Source of the DNA: Mansonella perstans
Lineage: Eukaryota > Nematoda > Chromadorea > Rhabditida > Onchocercidae
Reading direction: 5' to 3'
DNA: 64,000 bases
Assembly (NCBI GenBank): GCA_037074765.1
Contig: JBAMDO010000127.1
Coordinates: forward strand, 62,001-126,000
The notes beneath the pieces were generated by a model. That model was not told the DNA's origin. It made no database searches and worked only from the letters and a program-made list of their open reading frames with translations. The position numbers and the translations under genes were made by a program. Below, piece by piece: positions 30,481-50,707 of the stretch; position 1 is the first letter of the stretch; each line of letters opens with the position of its first letter.

Positions 30481-33543
<3,063 letters not shown>

Positions 33544-34309
33544 CTTTCCCAAAAACAACCCTATTCGAATAAATCTCAAAATTATATTTGATCAGAAAAT
33601 GACAACAATTAGCAAAATAGGACGATTGGAAGGAGGTATAGGAAAACTGGAAGAAGCATGAATGACAGGAACGGAGGTTCAGGGAACACGTTTAAATTGC
33701 CCGCAATCCTGTTCTGCGTTTTCTACGGCAGTGTAAATTTAATCATGAAATATTGCGGTCCCACTTACAACGGCAAGTCATTATGCAAATAATTCGTCCT
33801 TCTGTTTCGTAATGAGTATAAAGAATCCATTAAACGGTATGATTATTTGCAAATCAGACAAATATTATCACTTGTGGAGCATGATAACAGAAAATAAAGA
33901 AAGAAAGAATATTAATGAAAACTGCACAATGTCTTAAGAAGTCTTTGAAATGCAATTTTAAAAAGATTACTGAAAGAAATTGATCATTTGTTGATTAGAA
34001 AAAAATTTCACTTTCTCTACTTTCTGCATAGTAAATGATGGTTTTGTTGTTAATAAATGATGAAAAGCAGAACAATAATATTTCACGCAGCAATTGAAAA
34101 AATTAAACATTGAAGGAGAAGAAAGGAGTGGAGTTGCTGAGAAATTGCTAAAAGTAAAATTAAAATTTCCAGCATCGATTTAACCTAATTTAAGTGCAAA
34201 TTCCCTTTTTTCTTTCATTAAACTACATTAACAATAAAATTCGTTGTTATCCGCCATAATTATTTATATGTTATGAGATTTGCAGGAAACTTTGAAAGAA
34301 TTCCACCAT

Positions 34310-34433
34310 TTCATTGCGATATATTCCTATACTTATGAAAAAGATTCGTAAATTCATTCTACCGCTTCATTGCGATGTATTTCTACATTTATGGAAAAAT
34401 TTCAAAAATCCATTCCCCTGCTTCATCGCGATG
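34310..34433. repeat. 56-bp tandem repeat, about 2.2 copies
   Basis: TTCATTGCGATATATTCCTA begins at 34310, TTCATTGCGATGTATTTCTA at 34366 and the truncated TTCATCGCGATG at 34422. The first two copies share most bases, with scattered substitutions. Confidence 0.75.
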
Positions 34434-35010
34434 AAAAAAATCCCAGCAATTCAAAAAAGAAAAAACCGCGCTCTACAATACCCTGCATTGCTTATAACAA
34501 AACTGAGTATCATTCAGTTGTTATGGCAACAGCCAATCAGATTAGAGTGAATTAAAGTTGATGAGCTGGACGGTTGGGTTATTCATTCATTGTCAGTTTA
34601 GGTCGTTGATGGGGTCGGCTGCTTGTGCTGCTACTTGGGCGCATATTTATATGTGCATAATTTTGCATCATTTTTGCGTATTCTTTTGTAAGTTTTTAAT
34701 TATAAAAATTTATTGTTAAAATTTAATTTCTGTTTTGTGTTACTAATTTAAGGCAATTTATATATGTTACATGTTTGCTTGGCTTAATCATTTTTTTTTT
34801 ATGCAATTAGTAATTGAGTAATGTTATTACTGATTACATTATCAGTTAGAATTATTTTCTTCATGTTTACATATGAATAATTACGTAATGAAATTGAGTG
34901 GAAATTTTTCAGATCATCACTTCCACCTATTAATAACAACAAATTATTTTTATGACGTGGTCCCTGAAATTATCAAGTATCGATCGATTTGTCTGTAGTG
35001 CGCGTTGTTG

Positions 35011-35068
35011 AGCTCTCTCTCTCTCTCTCTTTCTTTCCCTCTCTCTCTTTCTCTCTTTCTCTCTCTCC
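35011..35068. repeat. (CT)n microsatellite
   Basis: Pyrimidine tract of CTCTCT with TTTC interruptions, upstream of the BET gene. The apparent Arg/Glu-rich frame on the opposite strand is an artefact of the repeat. Confidence 0.9.
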
Positions 35069-35980
35069 ATGGTACTTAGAGTGCCTGAACGTAGTGCATG
35101 TTGTTGATTGCTCACTGTCGCGTTGTGATAATCGATTTTTTTCTCTACTTCCCTCTTTCATATCTGTTGTCTTTATTTTAACTCTCTGTTGGTCTATGCA
35201 TGCATCGTCTTAAAAATATCTCTATGTATGTGATAGCGCGTAGACAAACGCGCGTCGCGGAAAGCCAATGAGATGCGTGCGTGCGCGAGCGCAAGTAACG
35301 TGCTGACGTGTTGATTTCATCATTCCAGATCGATCGATATAACATAATTGTGCTGGGAAAGATAATGCATGTGGAGGATTTTTCACACGTTTCACGTAAC
35401 ATATGTATTTTAGGTTGCATTATTGGCATAATAACTGTTTGGGAAAGTCATGCGCTTAAATTTCCATCATTTTCTTAGTCATTGCATATTATAATCACTT
35501 GATTTTACCTCTTCAGGCGGAAATGTGCTACAGGGTTTTCTATATTGTATTTTGAAACGACTAAAACAAAAGTCTTGTAAATTCTATTATCTGCGATGTA
35601 GAAGCATATTGTAATGATGATACTGTGCTTTGTTGGAGATGAATATTTTACAATGTGGTGTTCGCTATAAGTTGAATCGATGTAAAACTTTTGTACTGGG
35701 AGAGATGTGTGCGTGGTTGTAGAAAGTTATGCGACATTAGTCATTTTTACGCAACATGTATCGTCGCTTAATTGTTGAGCAAATTCTTTAGAGCATAACT
35801 CAATAAATTTGTATCAGCTTTGAATGTAGGAAGTGTGGATATGAGAAACATAAAAGTTGTGGACGAATCTAGACTTGTGGATTATATTTGATTCTATTAT
35901 CTTACTTCCTATGGCCGATGTTCTTTTTGTACTGATTAATATAGGGTTCTCTATGTGATGTGTGGTATGTCCTACATTAT

Positions 35981-35997
35981 TTGAAGAAATTTCAGAA
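35981..35997 (+). promoter_or_regulatory. Probable spliced-leader acceptor before the BET start codon
   Basis: AAATTTCAG ends at 35995, two bases before the ATG at 35998, with no upstream coding exon in frame. This spacing is characteristic of nematode SL trans-splicing. Similar acceptors precede the starts of the DDAH-like gene (2147), Flower (7440), MED14 (18832), the exchanger (50707) and IF1 (62651). This is inference from position and consensus only. Confidence 0.5.
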
Positions 35998-38900
35998 ATG
36001 TCTGTTTCTGCGGCCTCAAGCTCAAATGCAAACAGTAGCAGTAATGAGCCAGTAACAACTAGTGGCAGCACTCTGGGAGCGTCAGAAAATCCATCTGCAT
36101 CGGATGAGAAAACATCAGTGGAAATGGAAAACATTCATATAGAGGGGTCGCAAAATGGAGAAGCCTGTTCGGAGCAGCATGTTGATGATGGAGATAATGA
36201 CGACACTGCTACTGATATTGGTGCAGCTGCTCCATCAACAAATGGCTGGGAGTCGCCGCGACAGGTGCATTTTCGTCTTAATGCGCATATTTTGCATGTA
36301 ATTAAATGCTGGTTTTAGTTTATTACCAGCGTAAGCATCACTGCAAGTATATTTCGTCAAAGCTAAATCAAATTTTATAGGAAGCAATTAATGGGGTAGT
36401 ACAGCCGCGTGTGATCCCACCGCCAGGTAAGCCAACACGGCATACAAATCAGTTAGAATTCATGTTGAAAGAAGTCCTGAAACCAGCAATGCGTCATAAG
36501 CATGCTTGGCCGTTTATGAAACCAGTAGATGCTGTACGTCTAGGATTGCCGGTACGTATTCCTTTGTAACTCAAGTTTGACTGTTATTATGTGTTCTGAA
36601 GAGGATTCGAAAAAGTTAGAAACCAATAATAATTTTGAATTTTTGAAGGATTATCACAAAGTGATCAAGCGTCCAATGGATATGAATACTATCGAAAAGC
36701 GCTTGCGCAATTGTTACTACTACTCGGCAAAAGATTGCATGCAAGTAAGTAGGCTCTTATTTTTGAGCTGGAAACGGTGTGTGCGGAAGGATACTGTTCG
36801 GGTCCGAAATAATATCTTCGCGGTATTCTCTTGTCTTTCCCGTTCCAAGTGTTCAAAAAAAGGATGGGTGAATGTATCGAAAAATTGGTTAGGAAAATGT
36901 AGTGGGTTGTTGTGTGCACACAACTGTGTTTCCCTTCCCATTAATTTGAACTTGGAAATATTTCCCGCAACGAAATTGTCTTGGGAAAAAGGAATTCCTG
37001 TCTCAGTTTCATGTTCTCTAAAGGCAATTTTTCACATTTTGTTTTTTCATCGTGAGGAGTAGGAAAGTTTCTTTAATCTCCCAGTTTTAACCAATTCTTC
37101 TACCGAATGAATTGGATAACTGATAACTTCTCTTCTTTTTAAGGTTGTTTTGAAGTTTAATGATTACGAGCGGGAAATATTTTCGTATCACTTTTTTGTT
37201 TCAAATTTCCTTCAATTAGCACCCTTCGATTTTGATGGGCGCTGTTTAAAAGTCATTTGCAAAGAGAACATCGCAACGCGAGCATATTTCATAAGTGGTT
37301 CGGTTGAAAACGAAAGAAAACGAGGATTATGTGGCATTAATTTCATTTGATTCAACCATTTTTTTGGGCTGCTTCATTTCCGTTCACTCCTAAATTTTTG
37401 GTGTTTGAACTTAGCTGTGTTCATGTGTTTGTACATTTTTTTTTCATCTAGTTTTTTTGAGTTGGGGAGATAAATTGGGTTTTTTTTTGTGTGAAAAGTA
37501 GTATTTGGAGAAAGAAATTCCTTTTTCCGTAGAATGTTTTACATTATGAGTTATAATTATTGATGTGAGAAAAGAGGGAATTTATGGTTTCAAGCTGTCG
37601 GCTGGATGCAGGAGCACGATTTTTTCGATTACCAAAAGTTTTGGCAGTATGAGGGGGCTTTATCATCATACATTCAGTTGATCTTTTTATCTCTTTTTTC
37701 ATATTTTGTGTTTTTATGCAATTTTTAAGTTACATAACATGTTGTGTTATTGTTATGCTTTTTCACATGAATTATAGCGACTCTGACTTGATACTGTTCC
37801 TTGGTATACGTCAGATGCTGTGACTTGTGCTTCAGAGTAATTGTTTATAACATGTCACTGTTTTAATGGGGACTACTGATACTAAACAAGAGTGCGACTA
37901 CAAATGCATATGAACTCTTTCACAGGGAGGGATTTTATAATCAGAATGAATATATGTATATAGATGTGTGATGCCATCTCTTTGTGTAAACTATAAAAGG
38001 TGCCGACATGACACTTTCTGTAGCTTACATGTTTGCATTTGAATGAATGAGGAATGTCAGTCGTTGTTGATTCGAGACAGAAATCCCGACTTACGTAACT
38101 CGCGAAAGTATAAAATAGAGATGACATTAAAGTAATGGTCTAAATGAGCTGAAGTAAAGTTGGCCGATTTATTGACTGGGATCTTGAAACGAGGTTTTTA
38201 GATCAGATTTTTTGGGAAAATGAGGGAGAAGAAACCAACATTCATTGCCAATGAGGTGAGCTAAAATTAGTATAGAATAATACGAATGGTTAATATTTTT
38301 TTGCATGCAGTCGCAGTAATGTAGAAGACACTTTAGTCTTTGTGATCTTAGTAATCGCACGGTTAAACCTGTGCTATCATTTATTTAACATGCATGGTTT
38401 TTTTTTTTTGTTTTTTGTTTTGCAAGTCTAGCACTTTAGGTAGAGAAATGCGATTAGTTCCCCTTCCGCAGAAATCTGGGATATGATCTTAATTTCATAT
38501 ATGTATAAATGTAAATGCTGTACTTGTTCTCTTTGTTTCCGAAGACTTGTTCTTTATTCTGTTGCGAAGGACATGCGGAATAAGTAGGTTGAAAAGGAAT
38601 AGAAGCGGAAAGGTTTGGACTTCTTTGTTTCGGTTATCATAAATTTCGCTGTTCTGGAGCTTTCCTGTGCTGTTGTAGCTTATGGCTTTTTGCGATGAGT
38701 GTGAAATATAATTGAAATCCTTCCTTGGAATTCTTCCTCTGATAGCAAATGTATGTAAAAAAATTTAACTGTATAAGATTGGAAGTGGAACTATCTTTCT
38801 TTCTATTCAGTGTTGTTATCTTTAGTTTTGAGAATATTGCTTTGGTGACGGACCGGTATAGATCATAATATAATATGGATAAACGAAGTATTGGGGAAGA

Positions 38901-41900
38901 GGAAGGAAGGCGGATTAAAAGAGAATTCTAAAATTCTGGTTAACATTTCTTTCAATTTCATATACTTAATTGTTATCACTGAAAATTTATGAATTACGGT
39001 CAAGAATTAGGAATGAGATTCAAGCGCAGAATAGCCTCATCTTTGGCCTTTCAGATTCCAGTCTGAGTTCCCCGTTTCTCTATGCTGCTTAGTGTTCTTT
39101 TGTGAGTTCTTCTTTTGAAATCCCTTTCTTGAAGTAAGGCCTTTAAATATGCAGTTATGCATCAGACCTTTCTGGATTACGAATTTTTGAGAGAAAACAT
39201 GTGTGCCTTTATGAATATATGCAGTTTAATTTGTACAGTTTGTTGTGTATGCTTGGGAGTGGATGGGAATTGTTGCAGCTTAAATATTTGTTATGCAAAA
39301 ACTGTTGCCACTTTAAAGCTTGAAATAGCTAGCAGCTAAGCGCGGTTCTCTTTGTTCAGGACGTTATGACAATGTTCAACAATTGCTACACGTACAACCC
39401 TCCTGAGTACGGGGTTTATATGATGGCGAAGAACCTGGAACAGTACATTCTCACCAAACTCGCAGCGATGCCCCCGGAAGTAAGGCTTTTTAATTGTTCA
39501 CTAGATCTGTTTTTGCTAGCTTTCAGGATTTTGAGTCCATTTTTTCCAACTGCTACAAATTCAACCAAAACGAGGACGACGTATCACTTATGTGCAAGAA
39601 TGTGGAAAATTTGTACAGAGAAAAAATGAAACTTCTGCCGCCTCAGGTATTTCTGAAACTTTCACACTGTGCGATACATTCGGTATCCCATGGGTTTGTG
39701 AATGTTTTTTTTTTTTTTTTTTTTTTTTATTTTTTGCAGCTAGAATTTATTTGTGTTACCCTGATATCCTTGACTTTTTTTCAGGAAGTGGAAATACCAC
39801 GTCCAACAGCTAAACGAGCTACTGGTAAGGCGAAAAAGTCAACTGGTCGTGTTGCAGTTGTTAAAGGAGGTAGATTGTTCTTAAATTTACATTAAGACAA
39901 TTGCAAGTTATATCTTGTATTTGATAGTTCATGAGTTTCAATTTCAGGGAGTCGTGAATCGTCTGTATCTGTACAACGTGGTGCTGCTGATAGCTCATCG
40001 ATTTTTGATGCTGCAGGCAGTGGAGCCATCCATGCATCTGCAGCAGCTACTGTAGACGATGTTCATCCAACGTCATCGCAAGCTCCTGTTCAGCCTGTTC
40101 TTCCTTCGAAGGTTTCTTTGTTTCTCTGAAGAATTTTCCGCTGACATTATTGGTGTCAGTTCCAATTTTGTTTGATGAATTTCGCAGCTGAGGAAGACAT
40201 TTCAGTGTTTCTTGACAAGTGGAACGTAGTTTTAGGTTCAGAAAGGTGTCAAACGGAAGGCAGACACAACAACATCATTTGGTGATGATGTCGTTAGTGC
40301 AAAAATTGCAACTCGTCGAGAATCTGGACGACCACCTAAAAAGCCAAATTACTTTATTGACTATAATCAGTTGAAGCCACGTTTTAAAGGCAAACAAACG
40401 GAGCAGATGAAATTTTGTCAGCGTCTCGTTAATGAATTATTTACGAAGGTAAATACAACAGATTGTGTTGTTTGGGATGAAGTATTTCCGAAGAATTGCT
40501 GCTGCTCTTTTCTAGAATAGTGTGGACAGTATTGTTCGTCGCAGTATTGAATTTAAGAATTTTTTTTTAGTGTAAAAAAACTGGAAGATATTTTTTAACA
40601 GTGTTGATGATTGCTAGTTTTTCTCAGTGATATTCTATTATAGCAGTTCGTTTTTTTTTTTTTTTTTTTTTTGACTATTTAGATTGCAGTGTAACATCCC
40701 TTTGTTTGCTCTTACTTGAACACTTTTTTTTTTAGAAGTGTAAATCGTTTACTTGGCCATTTCTCGAACCAGTGGATGTCGAGGGTTTAAAGTTGGAAGA
40801 TTATTATGATATAGTGAAGAATCCAATGGATTTGGGAACGATTAGGTAATGGAATTTTGATTTGAAATGTCAGCATATCTACAAATAACGCATATTTTGG
40901 CCTTTCCTTTGTATGATTTAAGATTATAATAATGTGCGAGATAATCGTTTAAGTTGGAGGGAGGTTTTTAAATATTGGTTTCTGTACTGCGTTTTTGAAT
41001 TCTTTCCCTGTAACGCATGTAGCAGATTAGTCATTTTGTGTTTTTGCCTTTATTTTCATAAAAAACTTCGTGAGCAAACAATAGTTTTAAGAAGGAAGTT
41101 GGATGCTAAGCAGTATGCTACGCCAGAAGAGCTACGGGCCGATGTTATGTTGGTTTGTGAGAACTGCTACAAATACAATCCCACATCGGATCCTATCCAT
41201 CAGCATGGTCGAGCTCTTCAGGTTACTTAATAACTTGGATTTTTTTTTTCAAAAAACGGATTTTTTTTTGATTGTGGAAGAAGCATTTTCAGAAGTATTT
41301 CGAGGACAAATGGCGCCAAATGCCTGAGGAATCAGTAATAGTTGACGAGGGGACAACGGCAGCACAGGTGGTTGCAGGAGTACTTCCTGCACCAATAAGT
41401 CACGTCACACCACCAGGTCATGTGATCACGTCTGCCTCCGCAATAATCAAGGATGACTCATTAGTGTCTGGTCTTCCTCTTGTACCACTGGATGTTTCAT
41501 CAGGTGTTATTGACAGTGATGAACATATTGATCTCATTTTACTTGCTTTGCAAACTGAAACTGCCAAATGTCAGGAAAAAATATCTGAACTCCAGCGTCA
41601 TTCTCAGGAAATTTTGTCATTGAGGTTTGATTTTTTCTTTTTGATTCATAGAATATAAGTCAAGTCATATAACGGGGATGCAAAGAATGTAGCTTAATTA
41701 GCATAATAGTATTTGAGACTGTTGCGACTCTTACTGTTTGTAGTGGTGATTCTGATATATTATAGGCTGAAACGAAGAGAGGCTCAAGCAAATCATCTGC
41801 CGGTCCCGGTTCTTTCGGCAGCCACTGTAGGCACTCTTCAGTCTTTGGTTTCAACGCAGTTTTCCTTTGTTGCCGGTAGCCCAACGCCGACGATGAAGCC

Positions 41901-44900
41901 ATCCGTCACATATCCAGCCAGCAGTGGTGCTGCATCCGTGTCACGTAAAAAACCTGGCCGCCCTGCCAGAACTTACCAACAGCAAACTTCAGGAATACCT
42001 ACAGGATTGCGCACGAATAATGTTGCTGGGGAGATATCGTCTGAGGAACGAGAACTGAAGAATGAAATGAATTCACCGTTGAGCAAAGCTGCTCATCAGC
42101 GCCACGTCCAAAATCCAGTGCATGCGTCTTCTGCAGGTGTACGTCCAGCAACAGCGGTCCCACCTCAAGGAACACTTCCGAAACCTTTGGAACAAAGTGT
42201 ATCAGCGTCAGTAGCGCGTAAGCGTGGTCGACAACCGGGCACTAAAAACAAACCAAAGACAGATACAACACAGTCGGGTACGCCTACAGCAGATGCGCTA
42301 CCACGGCAGTCTGGATCAAGAAGAGTGCGTGAAGATTATGACTTCGATTCCGAAGATGAACGCACTGCAGAGCCAATGAGTTATGACGAAAAGAGACAAC
42401 TTTCGCTGGACATCAACAAGCTGCCGGGTGATAAGCTCAGTAGCGTAAGTTTTTGTAAATTGCTTTCGGATATCATTGGGTTTTTTAATTGATGTTTTTT
42501 TTTTCTCATGGGAAAAATACTTTTAGTTTTGGGATTCGTTCAAGTATATTAAATTTGATTTTGAGGCGTATGAATCAGATTTTTATTGTAATGCTATTTA
42601 CAGCAAAAATATTGCACCATGATATCTGTGCATCTTACTTTTGAAAATATGAACTACAAACCGAGTTTTTAATTTTATGACATTTCATATTTTAGGTTGT
42701 CAGTATAATTGAATCTAGAGAACAGCTTCCGGGTTTTAACCCTGAAGAAATTGAAATTGATTTCGAGACACTCAAACCAACTACGTTACGGGAGTTAGAA
42801 GCATTTGTTGCTGCGTGTTTGAAGAAGAAACCGAGGAAACCGTACAGTATGTTTCATTTTTTTTAAGTCACTGTTGTGCCTTTGCAATTATGATTCATAA
42901 ATATTAATAGTTCCATTATTGCAGCACCGAAGTCGCAAAAAGAAGTTGAGATTAAAAAACGAGAACTGGAAGAGAAAATTAAAGGTTTAGGCGGAGTAAT
43001 CACTGCTACACCTGTAACTGTAGGTTAGTCATTCTCTCGATTGAAATTTCATTCAAGCAGTAGTGTATCAGTTTTCGTCGTTTTTCACCTTGCAATACAT
43101 CTATTCCAGCCCAAAACGGTGCACGAGCAGAGCCGACAACCACGGGTAAAGGCGGTGAACCATCGTCTTCAGAATCCTCGTCAAGTGAAGATGACTCGTC
43201 GTCGGATTCGTCATCCTCGGATTCCTCAGATAGTGAATCAGGTTAGAGTGTCGTTTGAAAAGTGACCTGAGATTTTAAAGGCGCTTTCAACGTTTTGTTG
43301 TTCTTGTCTGTTTGATTTTATTTTAGAAACTCATTTTTATGTACTTACCTCAATAGCAACCTCATCAGCATTTTGTTATAATTTGGTTGCTTAGTTCAGG
43401 CATTTGATTTCGTTTTTTTTTTTTTTTTTGAACCATTTTTTAATGCCAGGATGTACCAGTCTAAAGTAACAGTAACTTTTAATGTTTTTTGGTTGCTGAT
43501 TTCTGTTATATATAATCTTAAAGGACTATTGTTTTTGAATTAGAGGAGGTGATCTTTTAACTTAAATGGCGAAAGCTCGGTTATCGAGAATATGTGATGC
43601 TATTATTTACCATGTAACGTTGTGCCCGTAAGTGCAATATCTACAACAGGCAACACAGTCGCATGCAAATCTCTCGCTATATAAATGGTGGTTGACGCTT
43701 GTCAATAGGGAAAGGTTTTTTAAAGAAAATCAATTTTAAAATTCATTTTATAAGCTAAAACAAGGCGAAGTAGCTAAAGACGAGAAATCGCAGTTCTGTG
43801 ATTCTCTATCGCTTTTTGCGCAGATTTCAATAATTGCTAGAACGGAACCATTTGCGATCTTCATTATTATAAGTAAATAACGATAGCTATCTTCTGAAAT
43901 TTTTCGGACCAACCTTTTTTCCTGGCTTGTTTTTCTTTTTTTTTTCTTTTTTTTTTTTGCACATCACTTATTAGGATGAATATTCATACTTAGTGCATGG
44001 AGGGATAGCGAGCCTGTGGGGAAAGGAAAAAAAAATCACTATTTGTGTTGATAACCTGAAGTGGAATTGCACTTCCGGAAAGGGTTTATTTGTTGTATTT
44101 TGTTCAGTTTTTAAATTAAAAAAGGAAAAGATGAAAAATGAAGATACTGTCCAGAGAGTGTTGTTCCACACATCTCTTATGGTTATTTCCTTTACTTTTT
44201 TCGTGATGTGCAAAAACTTTTTTGAATGTCTTTGTTTTGTCAAACTTTTTTGTTGAACTTAGTCATAATTTCTCCGTTTTTTTTCTTTTTGTTTTTTCTA
44301 ACCCCTTTTTAGACCCTAATTTTTTATTCAGAAAGAGTCAGCAACGAATAGCTCTCTCCACTGTTTTTGTACGAGGGAGTATTGTTTGTGTCCGATATAA
44401 TGTACAGCGATCTTATTATTACTTATTCAAAAGAATGTTTTAAATTCTGCCATTCCGTGTTCCTGTCTTCCGGCTGATAAGTAAATTTTATCTGATCTTA
44501 TCTATTTGTAAGAACATTGGAACATTGTCAACTTGTGTTTTGAGTCTTACTGTATCATTTTCCATGTTTTTCCTGGTAACGATGTCATGGTGCATCTTTT
44601 TTTTCCTTGTTGCTTTTTCCGTAAAAGTAGCGGTATTTTTTTGAAATATGTCAGTAATTGATTAATTTTATACGATCCTCATTTCACAGTATAGCGATCT
44701 TATCATTATGTGATGTCGATGAATTACTAATTTTTGTTCTTCCTTTTCTTTTTGTTGTGCATGTAGTATTATTGTTGTTTTGTCCGTTTCAGTTCCACAG
44801 CACATATATTTATCATTCATCCTTCATAATAAAACAAGTCATTTTTACTCATATTGATATCATGCAAAATATGGCGAATAACATGGATCAGGAAAGTTAG

Positions 44901-47243
44901 GCGTCAATCACCATTCGTACAAAAGCGAGAGTTTTGTATGTTAAACTAAAAAAAACTTTATAATCAAGCTATATTCACCTAAAATAAGCCTCTCGGTTTA
45001 TTATTTCAGAGACCACAGGTAATGCAAAAGTGGAGCATCAGGGACAGCGTGTTGGTGCTGAAAAGTTACAAGGTGCTGAGCATTCAACAGAAAAGGTGAA
45101 ATTCTGTCCCATACTTGATATCAGCAAAGTAGAAAAGGAGTTCAGGAATGTGTACGATGGAACCTATTCTGAATTGCTTCGGTGATTGTAATAATCAGCC
45201 ATATGTTGAACTGCTGGAAGTACGATTAGAATGTGCACTAAATTAGAGAATTCATGATTTAAAATTAAAAAGTGGTTGTTTGAAGAAGGAAACAGCAGCA
45301 CCAACTGCACCATCTACAAACAGTCAGCAACACCAGCTGAGTCCTGTACTGCAACATCCTACAAATCATTTTCAGTTGGGAAATGCTAAAGGTAATTTCC
45401 GCCTATTTGATTTAGACATAGAAAAGATTATGTGTTGTGAATCTTTGAATAATCTTGATTTTAATTGGATTTTTAAATGCTTTAAATTTAAACATAAAAT
45501 TTGGTGAACATTGGTAAATTTCTTCTTTTTCTTAGCACCCTGAAGTAGCCGGAAAGTTAGCAACCTGACCATTCAAAAATACATTCGGAGTACTCTCAAA
45601 GAGAAAATATAACCTATATTAATCAGCATACATTGATTCCGCCAACCTCTCCATTTTATACTCAATAGGATATTCTGCAAGCAACCTGGCCATTCAAACT
45701 ATTCTTCATTATGTGGATCGTTTTGATTTCGTGAGTGATATCTGATTTCTTTGGTATCTAGTGTGAACATTTAATTAATTTTGCAGAAGAGCAAGTGGAC
45801 AGCGGTTCTTCAACAGTGATAGGAAACCAGCTTGTTACTGTGAATTCTAGTAATGTATTATCTGCTCCATTGCAACCACAGCACGCACAACCGCAAATTT
45901 CTGGCGGATCAATACTTGATCAGTTGCTACCGGCAAAGCAAAATGGTTCGTTAGCTAGCTAATGAATCATCTGATAGTTAAGCAAGCAGTAAACTACTTT
46001 ATTTGATCAGATGGTTGCTATCAAGTAATTTATGCTTGGTGATTTCCATATGCGTATCAGTGGTGATGTATAGCACTGATTTCGAATATGATTTTAGCAT
46101 TGTAATCTAATTATTATTCCAGTGGTTTTTTTCTTTTGTATAATTCTTATAATGTTTTTAAGCAGACATTAAATGCGATGCTATTGAATGAACAGGGATG
46201 ATTAGGAAAATCTTATTAGTATTAAAGTATTCATTGGAATAAATTTAGAGGGGAAGAAAATCATTCACAATAATTCTTTTCAGAAATGGAGGACAAAACT
46301 GGTATAAAGAAATTGTCTGGATGGGACACCTTGGCGAAGAAAAGCCAAAGTGGTAATCTAACTATGCAAACTTCAACGCAGTTTGAGCTATTTCGAAAGC
46401 ATGCAAGGGAAAAGGAAGAAAAGGTTTTCTAGAGCTTATTAATTGCAAATGAACGCATGTTCCAGACTGAATCCTTGGAAAATCATGGTGTCGTATTTTT
46501 AATGATAAAACTGTGTAATGGTAATCTGCTTTATAAGGATTGCATTGTTTCAAATTGAAGCGTAAGCAGCTGAGAGTGGAAGAAGAACGGCGACGTCGTT
46601 TGAAGGAACAAGAAGAAAAAGAACGTGCTAAGGATCAAGCTGCAGCTGAAATTGCCGAGTTAGAGCAGAGAAGACAAAATGAACTCTTACGTCAAAAAGA
46701 ACAAGTAAAATTTGCGATTTATTGTGATTCTATAAGGCAGTAGTGGAAAAAACATAACCTCTAAATTAAGCTTTTGGAATATTTTGACGGTTCCATAATA
46801 TTGCAACGATTGCTAAATCCTAAGTAAGAAAAGCTAGATATTGTACGAACTGTGTGAATGTGAATTGATTTGCGCGAAATCTTTTTTTGAGTGTTAATTA
46901 TCATAATGTTTTGATGAATTATTGTGTCACAGCAGATTACATGAGAAAATTGTTTTGCACTTAACTGAGACAAATACGACTCAAGTGTAATTTGTTACTT
47001 AATTAGCACTGGCTCGTGCTATCTGGTGAGGGCTTATCAGTTTTTGTCCTCGGCTGTTAATGTAATGTTTAAATGAAAATTATCTGCTAACCAAATATAA
47101 AAGTAAAATTTGCGAAGCTCCTGCAAAAAAAAAAAAAAAAAAAAACTAAATTTCAGGAAAGACGACGTCGGGAAGCAATGAGTACAGGTGGTGATGTTAC
47201 AAGCCAGATGGATTTAATGCTCAATTTTGAAGCTAATTTCTAA
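35998..47243 (+). CDS. bet-1: BET family double-bromodomain protein (BRD4-like, BET-1), complete
   Basis: Nuclear reader of acetylated histones that promotes Pol II elongation. Exons: 35998-36264, 36381-36551, 36649-36744, one of 39360-39479 or 39527-39646, 39785-39869, 39948-40111, 40236-40448, 40736-40845, 41092-41221, 41293-41624, 41766-42444, 42696-42846, 42925-43023, 43110-43241, 45010-45095, 45286-45391, 45787-45945, 46284-46423, 46561-46704, 47157-47243; 1156 residues. Bromodomain 1 (about 110-218) has [22 protein letters not shown] and an alternative second half. Bromodomain 2 (about 350-460) has [23 protein letters not shown] and ENCYKYN. The NET domain (about 765-840) has [20 protein letters not shown] and [21 protein letters not shown] Ser/Asp/Glu-rich SEED tract follows (exon 43110). 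The C-terminus carries the long-isoform BRD4 motifs: [27 protein letters not shown], a basic coiled coil, and ERRRREAM with an FEANF end, which in BRD4 binds P-TEFb. The exon at 45286 has a weak acceptor. Confidence 0.95.
39360..39479 (+). other. bet-1: BET bromodomain 1 alternative exon A
   Basis: Exactly 40 codons, phase 0 at both ends, bounded by TTGTTCAG and GTAAGG. It encodes [18 protein letters not shown] and continues through helix C to KLAAMPPE. It supplies helix B, the acetyl-lysine-binding Asn (last N of CYTYN), the BC loop (PPEYG) and helix C. Its third codon positions are visibly richer in G and C than those of neighbouring exons. Confidence 0.85.
39527..39646 (+). other. bet-1: BET bromodomain 1 alternative exon B
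   Basis: Also exactly 40 codons, phase 0 at both ends, bounded by GCTTTCAG and GTATTT, 47 bp after exon A. It encodes [18 protein letters not shown] and continues through helix C to KMKLLPPQ. The binding Asn is kept (CYKFN), but the BC loop is acidic (QNEDD) and helix C differs. Either A or B joins the next exon (GAAGTGGAAATACC) in frame. Confidence 0.85.
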
Positions 47244-49818
47244 AAATAATTTTCAAAATGTATTCCTTATGTTTTGCATAAATTCCAGTGATTAGTAGTG
47301 AGCGTTTTGCTCATAAAATGTTCATCTGTTTATAATATAAAATTTTAGCACTTTATCTGCAATTGGTTCATTTTTAGGCTTTGATGGCAGAATAAGAAAG
47401 GAATTTGTTGTGTTTTGTTGATTTCTTTCCTCTGAGTAATCTGAAAATATCAGGGTTTTTTCGTTTTTATTAATAAAATAGTGAATCTGGAGAGTGTTTG
47501 TCACAAATTTAGGGATTTTTGAAAATTGAAGGACACAAAAGAAATCATCTTTATAATTATTGTTAACTTTTAGTTAGGTTTTTATTAAAGTTATGATTTA
47601 ATTGGGGATGATGGGAATGACTATGTAGTTTGAGTGTTTGGGTTGTAAAGGTGTAGTTTATAAGGACATTCCTTTCTGTAAATTTTAGATTCTTTTTCGG
47701 GAGGATTTCAATAATTTAGGTTTTGTACAGTTTCTATGATGGTTTGAGTTTATTCATGTCAGTTTTTAAATTTTAGTTTCATTATTTCATCGCCTGACAT
47801 TGTTTTATTACAATACAATAGTATCACCAACAGAGATTCATTTACTCTTCATTTTTACAAACATTGTGCATTGTTGGTGCAAATTTTGCTTATTTGCCTT
47901 TTTTATAGGAAAAAGATATGTTGATGAATTTTTTTCTGCACTAGTTTTACGGTAGCTACTTATTTCCCAGAGGTTGTAACATTGTTTTGTGTGGAGAAGT
48001 TTGGAGAAATCACTGTATCAATTATGCATATAATTTGAATTGACGTTTAATTTTCCTGAAATATCAATATTAAAAGAACAAACATTTGAATGTTTTGCTT
48101 GAATGTGAACAGTTAAAGGATAATCTTGTTTAACTCTTTTAGGAAACATGAAATAGGATGGTTCACTTCCATATTCAATACATTTTTAATTGCATCATTC
48201 CTTACGGTAACATATATCATTTAGTAAAATAATATTACGATTAAGCTGTGATATCATCTTAAAATGGAAATTTTGCTGATTAAATTTAGTTAGCCATTTT
48301 GATTGATCAATAAAATAGAAATTTTCTTGTTACTATAATTAATTAATGTGCAAATCATCGCGCGTGTGTGGTAATTTGTGAATTGCATGCTTCTTTTTTT
48401 TTTGTTCATGAATTGGAAGATTTTTTTTTAATTGCGAAAACATTTTATCGTATTTCATTAATTTTAAAATGGATGTAATATTATCATCAATTATAGTGGA
48501 ATTGTGAGATCAATTTTTTTTTTCTTTTTTTGCCGTGATATTCTTTTGATGAGATTATTTTTTCGCGTAGTTATAAAGATTAAAGTTTAAAAAATGGAAA
48601 ATCAAATTGCAGAAGTGTATACGGTAAAAAGAAAAAAATGCATGAAGCACCAATCATTATTTTTGTTTGTTACGGTCGTTGCGCAGTTCAATTCAGTGAA
48701 ATAAATTTACAAAAAAAGTGTAAACTTATTTCCATTTGGAAAAAAAGTGCTTTTGATATTGGTTGTTTTGCTTTGCTTACCATCTTTTTTTTTTTTGTCC
48801 TTTCATCATAACTATGTATTCATGAAATTTTTAGAAATTATAAATTTTCCTCTCTGTGACATTTTATTATTTTATAAAATAGTGAAAGAGAGTCAAATCA
48901 TTTCTGCAATAATTTCCCTCATTTATCGTTTTATTATCACCAGCAAGAATCCGAAATATTACGCGGTCCCTCTTGTGTCATTATTATTTTTTTCTTTGCT
49001 TGAATAATATGAAACTTATTGTCTCTTTCTCATCAATAATCTTTATTTTCCGATTGATTTTTTTTTTTTTTTTTACATTTTTGCTCATCAAAGAATGGTG
49101 GGGAAATGATAATAATAATAGTAATTTAAAATATTTGCTAATTAATGAAGGAATAAAAATTGTTGTTAAATCTTATTATTCTTAATGGAGCGTATTTCAT
49201 AAAACTATTTTTTTTTGAAAAATAAAATAATGAATTTAATGTTTGGTTTACATGAGAATAAAAGAAATAGTGTAGCTTGTTGAAATATGGTAAAGGTAGA
49301 AGTAAGTACTGCAAGTTCGATTTAATTTAAAATTTTTTCATTGAACAGGATACTGATTTATACGTGTGTGTATATATTTGTATGTGCGTGCATGTGTGTA
49401 TCTACGACATGTTAAGGATTAAAATAAGCCTCGGGCAGTATGAGTAAAATTTGATGAGTGGATATGGGTAATGTCTATTTCTGTTTCCGGGAGTTATTTA
49501 GGGTTTATCACAATCATTAATTGCACTTGCAAGTGTATCACCTTGCTGTATCTTAAATTTTCATTTTAAAATTTCAATAAAATATTTATTGCTCCTATAA
49601 AAGGATGAGTCATCGAATTTTAATTTCAAGAATTTTGTAATGGAGAAAAATGATTAATTGAAAAGCTAGTGATAAGATAAAAATGGAAATATATGTATGA
49701 TTCGGTAAAATTAAGCTTAAGAGTTTTAATGATTGTTACATTGAATTGATATTTCTGGTTAAAGTTATTTTTATCGATCAAATTCTATCCTGATTTGAAA
49801 AATGACACAAATGACAAA

Positions 49819-49864
<46 letters not shown>

Positions 49865-49957
49865 GCATACACATGCACACACACATGTACACATGCATAT
49901 ATGCACGCACACCCATGCACACATATACATGCACATATGGACACATATGTACACAAA

Positions 49958-49993
<36 letters not shown>

Positions 49994-50032
49994 GACATCT
50001 GCACATGGAAATATGCACGCACACCCATACAT

Positions 50033-50063
<31 letters not shown>

Positions 50064-50707
50064 TACACAGATTTCATTAAAGGTAATTTTATTTTAAAAT
50101 CATTTATGATGGATTGATCTAAATTGTTAAAAAATAACTCAATTATAGCTTCTGATTTAAAACCCAATTGAGTAGAACGGATATTTGCATATTTAATTTG
50201 TGTCATTCATTTAAAATAAAAGGGTAAAAGCCATTAAGGATATTTTAAAATTAAAATAAAGCCATTAAAGATATGTTGTAATTTTTTAAATTGCTACTGC
50301 ATTTGTCTTTTCTTTCATTTCTGTCCCTCTTCTCCTTCTTTTTCTCTCTCTCTCTCTCTTCGTGCCGGTCAGTAGGCATATTGGTACATTTCTTTTTCTT
50401 TTTTTCGGCACAATTTAGAAAAAATATTTTTGGCATTTTGAAATCAATATTGGATTGAGGATTCATCTGAAATGGTGGAAGACATAGTGACATCATCGAT
50501 CGTTGATCGATCTGTGTGTGTATGTGTGTTATCACTCATTATTGTTTATTGTTTGTTGTTTTTGTTCAATATTGTTGTTTTCGTTTAATGTTATTGTTTC
50601 TGTGTAATGCTGTTGTTAGTGTTTTCGTTTAATGTTATTATTACTGCGCACGGTTTCTCGCTCGCCATCCCCACTGTTGAAATTTGTTGTAAATAAATTA
50701 ATTGCAG
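47244..50707. other. Intergenic, BET 3' end to exchanger
   Basis: 3.5 kb of AT-rich DNA between two plus-strand genes, including the BET 3'UTR (AATAAAA near 47474) and a compound CA/TA microsatellite at 49821-50058. A CT run lies at about 50343-50360. No coding exon was recognised, and the gap is long for an operon. Confidence 0.5.
49821..50058. repeat. Compound (CA)n/(TA)n microsatellite
   Basis: Two pure CA runs (about 49821-49857 and 50033-50056) bracket degenerate ACACATGCACATA and TATATA sequence. The many Cys/Val or Thr/His frames here are repeat artefacts. An alternating purine-pyrimidine tract of this length could adopt Z-form DNA. Confidence 0.97.

Follow-up and report, generated by a model that had tools for sequence, protein, structure and literature searches.

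Tandem, very probably mutually exclusive exons encode alternative versions of half of bromodomain 1 in the bet-1 gene of Mansonella perstans and other chromadorean nematodes

The 64,000-nucleotide stretch of Mansonella perstans DNA which we analysed (hereafter the window) contains on its plus strand a gene which, judged by protein similarity, is bet-1, the BRD4-type BET gene of this filarial nematode. Over approximately 890 residues the predicted BET protein is 91% identical to that of Wuchereria and 88% identical to those of Loa and Brugia. The exons of the Wuchereria (P0004) and Brugia (P0014) proteins fall in order along the window in tblastn searches. Pfam identified the Bromodomain family (two stretches), a BET domain and the BRD4_CDT motif PF17105 on both of these proteins, the last at residues 1119–1157 of P0004. 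Because the orthologues combine a pair of bromodomains with an ET domain and the C-terminal motif of BRD4, the gene was assigned to the BRD4 type and named bet-1. Fourteen exons between 35998 and 43241 give a 916-residue open frame, and do so alike with either of two alternative exons, A and B, which are described below. The tblastn matches to the bet-1 orthologue run on past 43241, to 47240.

The first coding exon lies at 35998..36264 and is spanned by the tblastn match of P0004. A TTTCAG two bases 5′ of the first bet-1 ATG (35990–35997) is possibly a spliced-leader acceptor-like site or the end of an intron in the 5′ UTR. Exon 2 (36381..36551; tblastn) encodes the start of bromodomain 1 (BD1), comprising helix Z, the WPF shelf and the ZA loop, and exon 3 (36649..36744; tblastn and model) continues from helix A into the beginning of helix B; both are common to the two forms of the protein. 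The intron at 36745..39359 leads to exon A (39360..39479), a spacer (39480..39526) and exon B (39527..39646), and these are followed by an exon which is again common to both forms (39785..39869; tblastn). Most of BD2 was placed by tblastn at 40736..41221 (exons 40736–40845 and 41092–41221), and no alternative exon for BD2 was seen within those limits. The C-terminal part of the ET domain and a Ser-rich stretch lie at 42696..43241 (exons 42696–42846, 42925–43023 and 43110–43241; tblastn and Pfam). The last coding exon (47157..47240) carries most of the BRD4_CDT-type C-terminal motif and matches P0004 residues 1131–1158 with 100% identity. All of these features are on the plus strand. The introns between 35998 and 43241 measure 2615 nt upstream of the pair, 47 nt between A and B, 138 nt from B to the next exon and 71–287 nt in the other eleven cases; downstream of 43241 the gaps between tblastn matches, which are match ends and not splice sites, are all >130 nt.

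A RuvB-like 2 gene lies on the minus strand at 30774–33591, head to head with bet-1 and approximately 2.4 kb from it (the piece 32788–33072 was called by search and the remainder by eye). The interval is possibly a promoter region common to two chromatin genes. At 49750–50210 the window contains a long simple repeat, with His-Thr and Cys-Val runs, which gives spurious reading frames on both strands.

A preliminary description of this DNA had reported two adjacent exons of equal length, in phase 0 on both sides and 47 bp apart, and this was confirmed. A and B are 120 nt (40 codons) each, the upstream exon ends in phase 0 at 36744, the downstream exon starts in phase 0 at 39785 and all splice sites are GT-AG, including the GT and AG at the ends of the spacer. 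Compared in register, the two exons are identical at 15/40 residues and 63/120 bases. Either exon encodes the remainder of helix B, the acetyl-lysine (KAc)-binding Asn (exon position 13 in both), the BC loop (PPEYG in A, QNEDD in B) and helix C. It had also been proposed that each of them completes a BET bromodomain 1, and we found that for either spliced BD1 (124 residues) the best matches in the PDB were BRD4, BRD2 and BRD3. The same PDB chain scored 143.1 bits with the A form and 143.4 bits with the B form, and residues 1–119 of both forms aligned to BRD4 BD1 without gaps in the alignments to the two best PDB chains.

We compared AlphaFold2 models of the Wuchereria A-form protein (P0004) and the Brugia B-form protein (P0014) to locate the exon within the fold. 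In both models BD1 helix B covers residues 174–191 and helix C covers residues 197–213. All BD1 helices fall at identical residues in the two models, and the B model has one additional short helix at 133–136. The exon had been described as encoding helix B, the BC loop and helix C; the models of both forms agree for the BC loop and helix C but not for the whole of helix B, of which only the last two thirds are included, as the exon starts at residue 180. The helical blocks of BD1 are confident, with block pLDDT values over residues 181–220 of 86–95 (A) and 82–92 (B), and the ZA-loop blocks are weaker (73–87 in A and 56–74 in B). Mean pLDDT for the whole protein is low (56.0 for P0004 and 52.9 for P0014), most of the chain being below 50.

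The exon pair is highly conserved among filariae. Between orthologues carrying the exon in question, A (three orthologues) and B (four orthologues) are identical at 39–40 of 40 residues, compared with 74–81 of 89 for the N-terminal exon of bet-1 in the compared filariae, a difference which excludes chance as the explanation. Exons 2 and 3 are identical in all five. This degree of conservation, close to that of the rest of BD1, together with splice-site dinucleotides which are intact at both exons, makes it highly unlikely that M. perstans uses only one of the exons and carries the other as a relic, even though known Caenorhabditis elegans cDNAs are of B type only and key residues are missing from one form in each of two other nematode models (both described below). 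We also searched the whole 75.7-Mb genome with the A-form and B-form BD1; no third alternative exon or further close copy was found, and the matches were otherwise weak ones to other bromodomains.

We then surveyed nematode BET proteins for the two exon types. In total 73 rows were classified, comprising all 69 rows of one protein search together with P0092 and P0168–P0170 from two more; the search that yielded P0092 gave the best 120 of 311 matches, and its other 95 new rows (vertebrate or unnamed) were excluded. Fifty-five rows were chromadorean and 18 were outgroup or unnamed. It should be noted that the protein database merges sequences at 90% identity, so that the two isoforms of a given species, A and B, would normally be clustered together and represented by one sequence. 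The 55 chromadorean protein models divided into 17 with A only (P0024 being read by eye), 16 with B only, 17 with A then B and 5 which were irregular: P0022 (A plus the tail of B), P0169 (an A remnant then B), P0070 (A then unrelated residues), P0071 (a truncated model) and P0043 (neither A nor B). In all 17 models with both types A was upstream of B, and in 14 of them the starts were exactly 40 residues apart, counting three models which begin within A; the three exceptions were P0026 and P0032, with a shortened A, and P0065, with 8 extra residues between A and B.

The pair is therefore present in other nematodes, with neither A nor B absent from all close relatives, and near relatives are represented by opposite single forms. 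These include Wuchereria (A) versus Brugia (Bm4523 isoform k) and Loa (B), Parascaris (A) versus Ascaris (B), Ancylostoma (A) versus Necator (B), Ostertagia and Cooperia (A) versus Haemonchus (B), Pristionchus mayeri (A) versus P. fissidentatus (B), and Bursaphelenchus xylophilus (A) versus B. okinawaensis (B). The single-type entries are predicted proteins rather than sequencing reads, and in a few of them, such as P0053 and P0069, the N terminus is truncated or the downstream join is unusual. The occurrence of A-only and B-only models in closely related species across Chromadorea lends good support, at the level of predicted proteins, to the earlier proposal that A and B are alternatives.

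The 17/55 serial models, which include the Brugia entry Bm10119 isoform c, count against strict exclusivity. Together with the 47-nt spacer and its GT and AG, and the exact 40-residue spacing in 14 of them, they are what would be expected if both exons were constitutive and every transcript carried A followed by B, in which case the bromodomain would contain an additional helix-loop-helix. We regard this arrangement as very improbable, as 33/55 models have one type only, A or B alone completes BD1 without gaps, and the exon starts inside helix B, meaning that a serial product would gain a second partial B-BC-C unit. The three printed C. elegans cDNAs also have a single B-type unit, as read by eye. 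We read the serial A and B models as gene-prediction joins, such as predictors would give from two in-frame exons, and retain alternative use of A and B as the preferred reading.

Brugia malayi (P0014, P0068) apparently has two bet-1 copies, Bm4523 and Bm10119, which are approximately 90% identical including gaps; isoform k of Bm4523 has B, and isoform c of Bm10119 has A and B in series. These may be paralogues or sex-chromosome copies, and the M. perstans genome has one copy. Both exons may already be present without comment in the Brugia gene models, in which isoform k of Bm4523 is named. An extra HVLEHFHNATVR-like stretch between BD1 and the SRESS motif was observed in P0015, P0029, P0030, P0035, P0036 and P0092 and is absent from the window model; it is perhaps another optional exon.

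To examine the history of the pair we constructed a midpoint-rooted tree from 27 A, 28 B and 10 outgroup exons (40 columns). The A rows and the B rows were each set apart by a branch with strong support (99/99 and 100/98), and A attached beside Trichuris and Trichinella with moderate support (95/67 and 92/77). The B branch was long (1.54), and with 40 columns, a midpoint root and an unsettled bootstrap the attachment point of B is unsure. Mean identity over the 40 positions was 25.3 within A, 27.0 within B and 13.7 between A and B, and the outgroups were closer to A (17.0–22.4) than to B (12.8–15.5). The Trichinella and Trichuris rows had a single A-like form only, and the B form was seen in Plectus. 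These sequence comparisons suggest that one old tandem exon duplication lies behind the A and B groups. In the simplest history the duplication would have occurred before Plectus split from the other sampled Chromadorea, after which A would have retained the older character and B would have evolved rapidly before its sequence became constrained.

An origin of exon A as a copy of the gene's own BD2 was also considered and rejected: NPP after the Asn is also found in Trichinella BD1, and the A rows group beside Trichinella and Trichuris BD1 in the tree, which was built from BD1 exons. Human BRD4 BD2 was matched at 86.5 bits by the A form and at 72.0 bits by the B form.

For C. elegans, PMC9835578 prints three bet-1 cDNAs (bet-1A, B and C), and these contain only the B type (one stretch translated and the others read by eye). 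No Caenorhabditis protein was among the matches listed in three protein searches, one of which gave the best 120 of 311. We infer that the A exon was lost in C. elegans. The pair may have gone unnoticed because the three printed C. elegans bet-1 cDNAs are all B-type.

We next compared the pocket residues using BRD4 numbering, in which Asn140, Asp144 and Ile146 are given by PMC10726358 and the other positions were counted from them. Cys136, Asn140, Val146 and Met149 are identical in exons A and B of the window. The differences are at position 139 (Tyr in A, Phe in B), at 141, 142, 144 and 145 (PPEYG versus QNEDD at 141–145) and at 147–148, so that form A has a BC loop without the acidic pair at 144/145 and form B has an acidic EDD loop and Phe139. 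The preliminary description had noted that the gatekeeper position follows the Asn; this position does not differ between the forms in the window, and as it is Val in both exons, the gatekeeper is not the switch there. Across the 27 A rows position 146 is Val in 18 and Ile in 9, the latter all from other nematodes. All 28 B rows have Phe139, Glu143, Asp144, Asp145, Val146 and Met149 (EDDV plus Met). In the A rows position 144 is Tyr, Ser, Phe or Cys, and position 145 is Gly in 18/27 and Asp or Glu in 7/27. The KAc-binding Asn is found in 26/27 A rows and 28/28 B rows.

Two models depart from these patterns. In form A of Bursaphelenchus xylophilus (P0020) the KAc-binding Asn is replaced by Cys, and in form B of Pristionchus fissidentatus (P0056) the NCY motif reads ACS. 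One form may have been lost or be non-binding in some lineages, or the models may be wrong.

According to PMC10726358, Asp144 is present in all BET BD1 domains and His437 in all BET BD2 domains, a swap which has been exploited for domain-selective inhibitors. Among our outgroup rows, insects and Trichinella also have Glu or Ser at position 144, indicating that the Asp144 rule is not universal in animals. As aligned here, the exon swap hits the very position (144) which separates the two human BET pocket classes, and it is plausible that exchanging A for B alters the acetyl-lysine or peptide preference of BD1. The two exons could instead be alternatives with little effect on peptide binding, tuning stability, partner binding or total BET activity: the two window exons do not differ at the gatekeeper Val, Asn140 or Met149, the WPF shelf and the ZA loop are encoded by common exons, and each exon has a net charge of −2 (hand count). 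We consider this unlikely, although it deserves some weight, since the conserved differences are at the pocket-rim positions 139, 144 and 145, Asp144 and Asp145 are found in 28/28 B rows with no Asp144 in the 27 A rows (Asp or Glu at 145 in 7/27), and inhibitors of human BET proteins discriminate between BD1 and BD2 through position 144 (PMC10726358). An altered binding preference is the reading we favour.

Taking the locus and the survey together, we consider it highly probable that bet-1 carries an old tandem exon duplication whose two exons are spliced as alternatives, giving two BET proteins which differ in half of BD1. On this evidence the exon pair is real, conserved and very probably mutually exclusive, and a functional consequence is likely. 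We infer exclusivity at the RNA level, its regulation and altered binding. In the proposed mechanism exon 3 would be joined to A or B, and A or B would then be joined to the next exon. Either exon would complete BD1, and the two resulting BET proteins would be identical except for half of that domain. The two forms would have different preferences for acetylated peptides and inhibitors and would be picked by cell type or stage. Because the exons are 120 nt each, products with both or neither stay in frame; errors would therefore escape frameshift removal and the choice must be set during splicing, and for the same reason the absence of such products cannot be argued from frameshift.

With its GT and AG ends the A-B spacer could itself be spliced. 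Introns of approximately 47 nt are ordinary in C. elegans, and small introns are normal in nematodes. That C. elegans splices introns of such size speaks against an exclusivity imposed by steric hindrance in the 47-nt spacer and not by regulators, as does the RNA fold over the spacer, which revealed no unusual structure and was less stable than shuffled sequences (z = +1.3). The spacer could nevertheless hinder the joining of A to B, as its 47 nt are fewer than the 71-nt minimum of the other mapped bet-1 introns, and steric hindrance is a recognised route to exclusivity (PMC3585155); we regard it as a possible but doubtful sole cause here. It should be noted that a B. malayi RNA-seq study set the minimum intron at 50 nt (PMC3236722), a setting under which an A-B junction of 47 nt would have escaped detection unless annotated.

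Turning to regulators, we scanned seven splice-factor motifs in three introns against 500 shuffles. In the upstream intron UGUUGUG occurred 3 times against 0.51 expected (4/500 shuffles), UUGUUGUG twice against 0.22 (11/500 shuffles) and GUGUG 7 times against 2.82 (15/500 shuffles). Nothing was found for the other four motifs in this intron or for any of the seven in both short introns, and the whole-window counts of TTGTTGTG (7 versus 3.9) and TGCATG (45 versus 37.6) were ordinary. The length of the upstream intron and the three UGUUGUG sites in it, which are possible but weak CELF sites, weakly suggest a CELF-type regulator such as UNC-75. Rfam gave no match over 34000–47000 at gathering scores.

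Mutually exclusive exons are a known kind of splicing and are described as rare in C. elegans, with fewer than 100 events (PMC7434440). The same paper reports that coq-2 and mrp-1 use equal-length mutually exclusive exons, and coq-2 in helminths is the nearest parallel to the bet-1 pair described in the sources available. Exons 6a/6e of coq-2, in C. elegans and other helminths, are likewise a tandem equal-length pair remodelling the core of one protein; they are conserved across helminths and their isoform ratio shifts during the life cycle (PMC7434440). However, coq-2 encodes an enzyme and not a chromatin reader, its exons are 134 nt, it has been studied by RNA-seq and genetics whereas the bet-1 pair is known from sequence, and C. 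elegans keeps both coq-2 exons while its printed bet-1 cDNAs are B-type only. Exons 4a–c and 7a–b of C. elegans unc-32 are also mutually exclusive exons of one nematode gene, but of a different protein and with known regulators, the CELF protein UNC-75 and RBFOX proteins (PMC3585155), compared with only a weak UGUUGUG excess in bet-1.

Among BET genes, vertebrate BRD4, BRD2 and BRD3 have the same domain order and a BD1 which aligns without gaps. In vertebrates, however, the two pocket types, with Asp in BD1 and His in BD2 at 144/437 (PMC10726358), are separate domains, whereas in the bet-1 gene described here one domain position has two alternative C-terminal halves. In BRD4, long and short isoforms are distinguished by their C termini (PMC10968829). 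The bet-1A, B and C isoforms of C. elegans come from the orthologous gene and have a B-type BD1, but they vary chiefly at the C terminus and the A-type exon is absent from the three cDNAs (PMC9835578). We found no description of an exon swap in a BET protein or bromodomain in the literature searched, from which subscription journals were mostly missing; nor was the pair described among the papers listed for mutually exclusive exons in nematodes or for bet-1 and the Brugia gene names.

BET proteins occupy a central place in transcriptional regulation and are targets for drugs. One BET inhibitor, JQ1, is reported to be adulticidal for Brugia malayi in vitro (PMC6890932), and our own literature search on BET inhibitors in parasitic nematodes found nothing. 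We think there is an even chance that one BRD4-type gene has supplied two BET readers since early chromadorean evolution, one with the older-type loop A and one with the derived, constrained acidic loop B, that stage- or tissue-specific splicing would redirect the reading of acetyl marks and inhibitor sensitivity, and that the known C. elegans cDNAs keep the B pocket only. If splicing does alter the BD1 pocket, worm BET specificity would be set at the RNA level, and inhibitor studies would have to weigh two BD1 forms; work in C. elegans may miss one of them. The exon pair would also offer a natural experiment, replicated across many nematode lineages, on the BC-loop residues which decide acetyl-lysine reading.
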